64,000 bases of DNA from Clostridia bacterium. GTDB lineage: Bacteria > Bacillota > Clostridia > Lutisporales > Lutisporaceae. The notes below the pieces were generated by a model. The model ran no database searches and was not told the origin of the DNA. It saw only the letters and a list, made by a program, of their open reading frames with translations. The stretch lies in the NCBI GenBank assembly GCA_035628995.1, contig DASPIR010000022.1, positions 1 to 64,000 on the forward strand, read 5' to 3'. The position numbers were made by a program, and so were the translations under genes. Positions 59,113 to 60,552 of this stretch are shown piece after piece. Positions within the stretch are counted from its first letter, which is position 1, and every line of letters begins with the position of its first letter.

Positions 59113-59251
59113 AATATCATTATATGAACTGCAAAGAAATGCCACAATAGTGCAGTTTATATAATATAAGATACCATTTAGCAAATGGAACCAAAATATG
59201 TAAAAAAAGTGATATAATATTTATAAACATTGAAAAATGGCGGTGAAATTG

Positions 59252-60313
59252 TTGAAACTGACAGCAGATAATATTACAGTTATGTCAGAGCACCAACAAA
59301 TATCAGATAACGTTGAACTAGTCACAAAAAATATCAGAGAGTATAAGAAGGAAGACGATCTCGCTGTTTTGGAAAACTTAAAAGACCTTTGCATAAAGGA
59401 AAGTATGACAGTAGAAATAGCAAAAATGTATAGGAATATTGGTATGTACCATTTCTATACAAACAATTTTGGCAATGCAATAATATCAATGCAGTTGGCT
59501 GTAGATCTGCTGAGAAGGGAAAACTGTACAAGCCTGCTTATCGAATACTATTCTGAGTTAGGGCTGGTGTATTTCTATAATCATGAGTACTTATATTCCA
59601 AAAGATATTATGAGGATGCTGAAGAACTCCTTCTGCAAGCTTCTGATATGAATAAGAATATAATATATTCTCACTATTTAAGATATGGGATACTGCTCAG
59701 CAATATGCAAGATTATTTCCGCTCAAAATTAAAACTCGAAAAGGCATTGCTGTTTGCAGAAGACGATAAGGATACTGGATTGGTAATAATGAACATCGGT
59801 CTTTTGTTTAAAAGGCAGAAGGATTTAAAAGCTGCTCTCAGGTATTACAGTAAAGCACTTTGCCTGATGGATGAAAATAATATTAAGACAAAGGGCATAG
59901 TGTACAACAATATTGCAGAGGTTTATAAGATACTTGGTCAGTATGGGAAGGCGCTTAGTTATATTGATAAAGCGTTTAACTGCATAACGGACAATGATCT
60001 GTCCAGGATGTTCATCTTCTTCAATACATTTACAGAAATCAAGATATTAATAGGGGAAAGAGAATCAGTACTTGATGAGTTTCTGGGACTTTTGGCCAGG
60101 GTAAAGGATTTTCACCTGTATAAAAGCCTTATAATAGAAGGTATAAGAAATATGATTGTGATAGGGTGTGAGGACAGGAATATACTTAAAAGACTTGAAG
60201 ATGCCATAGTTAAGCTTATAGAGAGTAATACTTATGATAATGAGGAATATATAAAAGAACTTAAGGTATGCCTTGGAAATATACGATTATCTGTTAGAGA
60301 ACTGAAAAACTAA
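59252..60313 (+). CDS. Rap-like TPR receptor candidate (RRNPP type)
   Basis: A 353-residue all-helical protein made of tandem tetratricopeptide repeats. Clear units are MYRNIGMYHFYTNNFGNAI, YYSELGLVYFYNHEYLYSK, MNIGLLFKRQKDLKAALRY, YNNIAEVYKILGQYGKALS. No N-terminal helix-turn-helix is visible, so it is built like Rap or an aspartyl-phosphatase regulator rather than like PlcR/NprR. A TATAAT lies at 59213. TTG 59252 follows GGCGGTG; ATG 59237 has no ribosome site. It is followed 20 nt later by a gene for a secreted 49-residue peptide, the standard layout of a peptide-sensing pair. Binding of that peptide to the TPR groove is inference. Confidence 0.72.
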   Translation: MKLTADNITVMSEHQQISDNVELVTKNIREYKKEDDLAVLENLKDLCIKESMTVEIAKMYRNIGMYHFYTNNFGNAIISMQLAVDLLRRENCTSLLIEYYSELGLVYFYNHEYLYSKRYYEDAEELLLQASDMNKNIIYSHYLRYGILLSNMQDYFRSKLKLEKALLFAEDDKDTGLVIMNIGLLFKRQKDLKAALRYYSKALCLMDENNIKTKGIVYNNIAEVYKILGQYGKALSYIDKAFNCITDNDLSRMFIFFNTFTEIKILIGERESVLDEFLGLLARVKDFHLYKSLIIEGIRNMIVIGCEDRNILKRLEDAIVKLIESNTYDNEEYIKELKVCLGNIRLSVRELKN

Positions 60314-60333
60314 TTTGAAAGGTGGTGTTTTAC

Positions 60334-60483
60334 ATGAAGAAAACATTAATATGCCTGCTACTTTCATTAACACTTATCCTGTCAACAACCGCAGCAGTAT
60401 TCGCAGTAGATGATGTAGGACTAATAATTAAAGCTAAAGATACAGTAATTGTAAAACCAATGGTAGATGACGTAGGTTTGTAA
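60334..60483 (+). CDS. Putative secreted pro-pheromone (49 aa) with duplicated VDDVGL
   Basis: A 49-residue peptide with Lys-Lys start, a hydrophobic core (LICLLLSLTLILS) and a signal-peptidase site AVFA before residue 25. The mature part is 25 residues. The hexapeptide VDDVGL occupies residues 25-30, directly after the cleavage site, and again residues 44-49, the extreme C-terminus. Codons differ (GTA GAT GAT GTA GGA CTA against GTA GAT GAC GTA GGT TTG), all changes synonymous. AAAGGTGG precedes ATG 60334. It lies 20 nt behind the TPR gene and before a strong terminator. The layout matches Phr/PapR-type pheromone precursors; the identity of the active peptide is inferred. Confidence 0.75.
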   Translation: MKKTLICLLLSLTLILSTTAAVFAVDDVGLIIKAKDTVIVKPMVDDVGL

Positions 60484-60498
60484 TAGTAGTAGAATGGT

Positions 60499-60552
60499 AC
60501 AGCAATAAAGCAGGGGAGCGAAACGACTCCCCTGCTTTATTGCTGTATATTT
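60499..60552 (+). terminator. 20-bp perfect hairpin after the pheromone gene
   Basis: ACAGCAATAAAG...GGGGAG (60499-60518) pairs without mismatch to 60527-60546 around CGAAACGA, then ATATTTT. The T-tract is weak but the stem is exceptionally stable. Confidence 0.75.

Follow-up and report, generated by a model that had tools for sequence, protein, structure and literature searches.

In the window, by which we mean the whole stretch of 64,000 nucleotides that was analysed, a gene for a TPR receptor is followed at short distance by a small open reading frame, whose predicted secreted product carries the hexapeptide VDDVGL at either end of its mature part. The features of the locus, all on the forward strand, are as follows:

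59237–60313, forward: TPR receptor gene, 358 aa (Pfam TPR_12, 8e-13; homologues; AF2 model; structural matches to NprR and Rap)
59300–59305, forward: approximate junction of the loss of an HTH domain relative to the same-position receptor L005, placed by alignments; the exact breakpoint would lie around ...SEHQQI/SDNVELV...
60318–60325, forward: Shine-Dalgarno-like AAAGGTGG of the propeptide gene, 8 nt before the ATG
60334–60483, forward: propeptide gene, 49 codons plus stop, encoding MKKTLICLLLSLTLILSTTAAVFA followed by VDDVGLIIKAKDTVIVKPMVDDVGL
60334–60405, forward: predicted signal peptide MKKTLICLLLSLTLILSTTAAVFA, which resembles propeptide leaders of the phage contig L141
60406–60423, forward: first VDDVGL copy, at the mature N-terminus, in the position of the relatives' xDxxDP
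60424–60462, forward: spacer IIKAKDTVIVKPM between the VDDVGL copies
60463–60480, forward: second VDDVGL copy, at the C-terminus
60499–60546, forward: intrinsic terminator with a 20-pair stem, closing the receptor-propeptide unit

The propeptide gene has the position, length, start, stop and sequence that a sequence-only reading of this DNA had given, and its full product is MKKTLICLLLSLTLILSTTAAVFAVDDVGLIIKAKDTVIVKPMVDDVGL. Its ATG lies 20 nt 3' of the receptor stop codon; this distance, the spacing of the Shine-Dalgarno-like element and the terminator make translation plausible, and the two genes are probably a single transcription unit. Judging from the sequence of the leader (Lys-Lys, a hydrophobic core and AVFA) and its resemblance to the leaders of relatives, we took the start of the propeptide to be a signal peptide. 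The small protein as a whole gave no family match.

The receptor starts at ATG 59237, with TTG 59249 or 59252 also possible. Its AF2 model is an all-helical TPR superhelix (mean pLDDT 88.6) with low confidence in residues 1–13. In structural comparisons it aligned to NprR after the HTH of the latter (Z 23.6) and to Rap (Z 20–22.5), of which the alignments span only a part. Both limits bear on the N-terminal three-helix bundle through which Rap proteins bind response regulators, a counterpart of which in the window receptor would be conjectural. TPR superhelices are common, and the eukaryotic protein LGN scored as high as NprR against the model. By the working definition of an RRNPP/RRNPPA pair, a receptor of 250–500 aa with TPR repeats adjoins a propeptide of 10–100 aa with a Sec signal and a ribosome-binding site; the window receptor lies within this range, as does the 49-aa product beside it, its Sec signal being assigned by sequence and homology. 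The genome also encodes 10 family-5 (oligopeptide-type) binding proteins and Spo0A.

Between the two hexapeptide copies, GTAGATGATGTAGGACTA and GTAGATGACGTAGGTTTG, there are four base differences, all of them silent, as the earlier reading had pointed out. Among the four-change neighbours of the first copy, 487 of 247,860 (0.2%) still encode VDDVGL, a naive figure in that all changes are counted as equally likely. Identical six-residue ends arose twice in 2,000,000 shuffles of the 25-residue mature part, and the only places in the 3.65-Mb genome that fit a degenerate DNA pattern coding for VDDVGL are these two.

Propeptides of related receptors

Small peptides with a Sec-like leader and, right behind it, the hexapeptide motif xDxxDP lie after about 28 of the 34 receptors that have readable downstream DNA. 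Some of the 38 peptides that we aligned had first been chosen with a motif filter, so the fair figure is that of a motif-blind scan, which took the 34 receptors that had 200 nt or more of DNA downstream. It found a signal-peptide-like ORF 3' of 25 of them, with an acidic-Pro motif in all 25, and the reverse-strand control gave ORFs in 5 regions and the motif in none. The window, L019 and L088 were dropped by the scan's own filters, yet such ORFs exist there; several receptors have two propeptide genes in tandem behind them. Thus the pairing of a TPR receptor with a predicted secreted peptide, which the sequence-only reading had claimed for the window, holds for most of its relatives, and we consider it very likely that the two window genes encode a receptor and its pheromone. 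By its sequence, ORF 60334–60483 is also a good candidate, with somewhat less assurance, for the pheromone precursor of a quorum-sensing pair of the RRNPP type.

In the 38 aligned peptides the motif x-D-x-x-D-P-x-G stands directly after the leader, which mostly ends in FA; position 6 is occupied by Pro in 36 peptides, position 5 by Asp or Asn in 35 and position 8 by Gly in 23. VDDVGL fills the six positions of xDxxDP, with Gly-Leu in place of the usual Asp-Pro, and on this alignment it is a divergent form of the relatives' hexapeptide that is repeated C-terminally. The sequence-only reading had put VDDVGL forward as the signal, with conserved (V)DDVG(L) ends to be sought in related genomes. 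In position and length the hexapeptide does coincide with the one conserved block of the family; its sequence is not conserved, VDDVGL being absent from all of the relatives' propeptides compared. Likewise, the suggestion of a C-terminal pheromone of the Phr type agrees with the place of the second copy and conflicts with that of the family's conserved block, which is the mature N-terminus.

The two-ended layout recurs in the same genome. The propeptide of its second receptor, the paralogue L009, reads VHDTTPD...VHDTDPD, and it and the window peptide are the only 2 of the 38 in which the first six residues recur (6/6 in the window; 5/6 in L009, VHDTTP and VHDTDP), taking a match of at least 3 of 6 residues as a repeat. 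In both the second copy is C-terminal. These layouts incline us to see the active core in VDDVGL itself or in a peptide longer by a few residues that includes it. An active signal longer than the hexapeptide, such as the whole uncut 25-mer or 8–12 residues from its N-terminus, with the C-terminal copy a by-product or decoy, would suit most of the relatives, whose motif stands at the mature N-terminus only, and a conservation that extends to position 8. We think it unlikely, however, since the repeated stretch ends after 6–7 residues in both the window and L009, with nothing around it repeated, and known RRNPPA pheromones have 5–10 residues (PMC11343458). The precursor would be exported by Sec, signal peptidase would set the N-terminus of the first copy and the stop codon the C-terminus of the second, so that, one end of each copy being preset, a single further cut could yield VDDVGL.

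Two minor observations concern other propeptides. That of L079 (G009:C210) has a loose internal repeat, VHDPYNPNIIMP / IIDDPYNSTRVVP. The second receptor-peptide pair of the window's genome (L093:242-2887, minus strand) is followed by genes for an FRG-domain protein and a histidine-kinase-like ATPase. The pattern FA.D..DP found no orphan precursors in this genome, and its matches in G005, G008:C13, G011, G016 and G021 were dismissed as chance.

The receptor family was seen only in one Clostridia family and on two phage contigs. Homologues occur in 6 of the 22 genomes examined of the order, with at least 32 receptor genes (E <= 1e-25) in a single 4.7-Mb genome, G009 (loci L006, L011, L013, L015-L031 and L079-L090), most of them accompanied by a propeptide of their own and several by propeptide genes in tandem. 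A class sample of 391 genomes, searched at 1e-20, contained no receptor outside that Clostridia family, and a phylum sample of 398 genomes at 1e-35 gave matches in the window's own genome only. Named records with homologues are uncultured Clostridia, Bacillota MAGs and one labelled 'Calditrichales bacterium MX18-03'; phage GenBank records held none, and plasmids distant TPR proteins only.

Probable loss of the HTH domain and history of the locus

Most relatives of the receptor are about 420 aa long and align with an additional N-terminal domain of some 65 residues, which is missing from the window receptor, from its congener L004 (65% identical) and from the paralogues L009 and L010. Modelled alone, the domain of the relatives has five helices (mean pLDDT 86.8). 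Nearly all of its Foldseek neighbours, matched with high probability and weak E-values, belong to the XRE/lambda type of repressor (SinR, ImmR, P22 c2, 434 and HipB), and its Pfam match is marginal (HTH_3, E 0.07). As far as the model goes, it is a DNA-binding HTH of the XRE type.

The receptor L005 (G008), in the same place before a DUF1003 gene, retains the HTH, and in G006, G012 and G013 an M29 peptidase gene is directly followed by DUF1003, with no receptor between them. Hence a receptor probably arrived at the M29 peptidase/DUF1003 place and later, within the genus of the window, lost its HTH at a junction near two similar Gln-Gln-Ile stretches. In a tree of the TPR part, which contained no Rap sequence, the window receptor and L004 group with L005 (support 99/94 without phage rows and 85/76 with phage receptors added), and L009 and L010 are placed apart from these three. 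This arrangement suggests two separate HTH losses, with independence the favoured history at a level where a tree holding all HTH-less receptors together, phage receptors included, was not rejected (p-AU 0.10). Because the HTH was lost from a receptor whose kin mostly have an XRE-type domain, the window pair is Rap/Phr-like in architecture rather than by demonstrated common descent, and 'Phr-type' is used of it by analogy.

Lacking an HTH, the receptor would exert its effect through binding to a second protein. By analogy with established RRNPP biology, which is the source of every step after secretion (how the peptide is trimmed, imported, bound in the TPR groove and used to control a protein target), the peptide would re-enter the cell through an oligopeptide permease and bind the receptor on the concave side of its TPR superhelix. 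As with Rap, the partner might be a response regulator, the Spo0A pathway or another regulator, and the peptide would switch its binding to the receptor, although the target and the direction of the switch are guesses. We rate a Rap-like, protein-binding output as an evenly balanced proposition. The HTH-less receptor could also serve other receptors as a dominant-negative partner or peptide sink, as might be expected of an otherwise full receptor that has shed its HTH in a genome with a second such receptor. This reading seems doubtful to us, more so than that of a longer signal, for at 1e-25 no HTH-bearing receptor of the family was found in the genome and there is thus no evident partner.

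Some receptors stand without a matching peptide. The sequence-only reading had named, as evidence that would tell against it, relatives that keep the TPR gene and have no peptide ORF, and one relative is of this kind: G003, which among congeners with a complete receptor is the nearest (65% identical), has DUF1003 directly after the receptor and no peptide gene. In a gapped alignment G003 retains AATTTGAAGGATGG (in the window AATTTGAAAGGTGG, the ribosome-binding site of the peptide), after which the terminator and the greater part of the peptide gene are gone; the receptor stop codon has gone too, through a lost base. On this one MAG contig the absence looks like a later deletion. No evident propeptide was found at other receptors with readable flanks, such as L006, L011, L015 and the phage receptor L140. 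Downstream of L005 (G008:C8, about 312,900) there is an unrelated 39-aa ORF with no evident Sec leader (MIKRAAVILQKMIPWLGKAMGKMIEDIEPYDVLKYALHA).

That the window ORF is a decaying relic, its Asp-Pro lost and its sister species without the gene, could account for the deviation of its hexapeptide from the family motif and for the loss in G003; we consider this quite improbable, given that the frame is open, the ribosome-binding site and leader are intact and both copies are identical in protein despite their four silent differences. Still less probable is a secreted effector, bacteriocin-like or of another sort, with no tie to the receptor. A small, predicted secreted protein that matches no family might pass for one, but its relatives sit behind receptor genes, are short and share one acidic-Pro hexapeptide, and no immunity or maturation gene adjoins it in the window.

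Relation to known signalling systems and to phages

With a pheromone precursor remaining our reading of the ORF, the pair can be set beside the known systems. It shares with Rap-Phr of Bacillus an HTH-less TPR receptor, a downstream propeptide with a Sec leader (here a predicted one) and carriage by phages, and the Phr precursor of phage phi105 likewise has two identical copies of a hexapeptide, ERPVGT (PMC11343458). However, the phi105 copies are 4 residues apart whereas those of the window occupy the two termini of the mature part, the block conserved in the window's family is N-terminal, the nearest kin of the window receptor bear an XRE-type HTH, and binding of Spo0F or ComA as by Rap would be an analogy only. 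NprR of the NprR-NprX system (Bacillus cereus group) is the top bacterial structural match to the receptor, and large NprX precursors with repeated pheromones have been reported (PMC9765709), but NprR has an N-terminal HTH and the window receptor none. The NprX motif SKPDIVG is unrelated to xDxxDP or VDDVGL; no motif like it occurs in the peptide family, and the resemblance to NprX that the earlier reading had mentioned was therefore rejected as unsupported. QsrB-QspB and the other Qss systems of Clostridium acetobutylicum are likewise clostridial, with a small peptide encoded behind a TPR receptor; the peptide is exported in Qss, and its active region can be internal (PMC7376267). The Qsr proteins, however, have an HTH, and in Qsp the conserved residues (Leu, Pro and Trp) lie towards the C-terminus. 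Loss of an ancestral HTH is reported to have founded RRNPPA subfamily 17 (Anoxybacter fermentans), as well as Rap (PMC12700828), a described history that resembles the one proposed for the window receptor.

Since repeated-pheromone precursors are established in Rap, NprR, PlcR and AimR systems (PMC9765709, PMC11343458) and HTH loss has already been reported, the finding is a variation within known RRNPP signalling, and the receptor and peptide look like an undescribed branch of this bacterial cell-to-cell system. More tentatively, the receptors and peptides may make up an RRNPP subfamily in its own right, new and peculiar to one uncultured Clostridia family and the phages of that family, with an N-terminal hexapeptide pheromone whose first residue is set by signal peptidase, with at least two HTH losses, and with two-ended precursors at both HTH-less receptors of the window's genome. 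Such a branch adds to peptide quorum sensing beyond cultured Bacilli and Clostridium. The more than 30 receptors of G009, most with a peptide variant of their own, make receptor-peptide specificity directly testable, the same-position receptor that retains its HTH offers a before-and-after comparison for the origin of a Rap-like receptor, and the two-ended precursor gives a sharp prediction of the exact signal.

Phage-borne Rap-Phr pairs are already known (PMC11343458). In the present family, two IMG/VR contigs with terminase genes (L140 and L141) bear HTH-less receptors, the first found of which is 42% identical to the window receptor; the two phage receptors are 71% identical to each other. 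That phages have pairs of the same kind suggests host-phage cross-talk. One of the two receptors on L141 is followed by two propeptides (GNYSDPDNIAKYAEEQVIPK and GNYINPLNIARDTVEQVMP), the leaders of which share 16–17 of 24 residues with that of the window, and the other by GIDKDPLSIVRYAAEQVMP. On the related phage contig, a receptor stands without a propeptide (L140:9959-11071) and is a possible listener to the signals of others. On L141 (9893-18460), two receptor-propeptide modules in a row precede genes for radical SAM/SPASM, MFS and oligopeptide-binding proteins.
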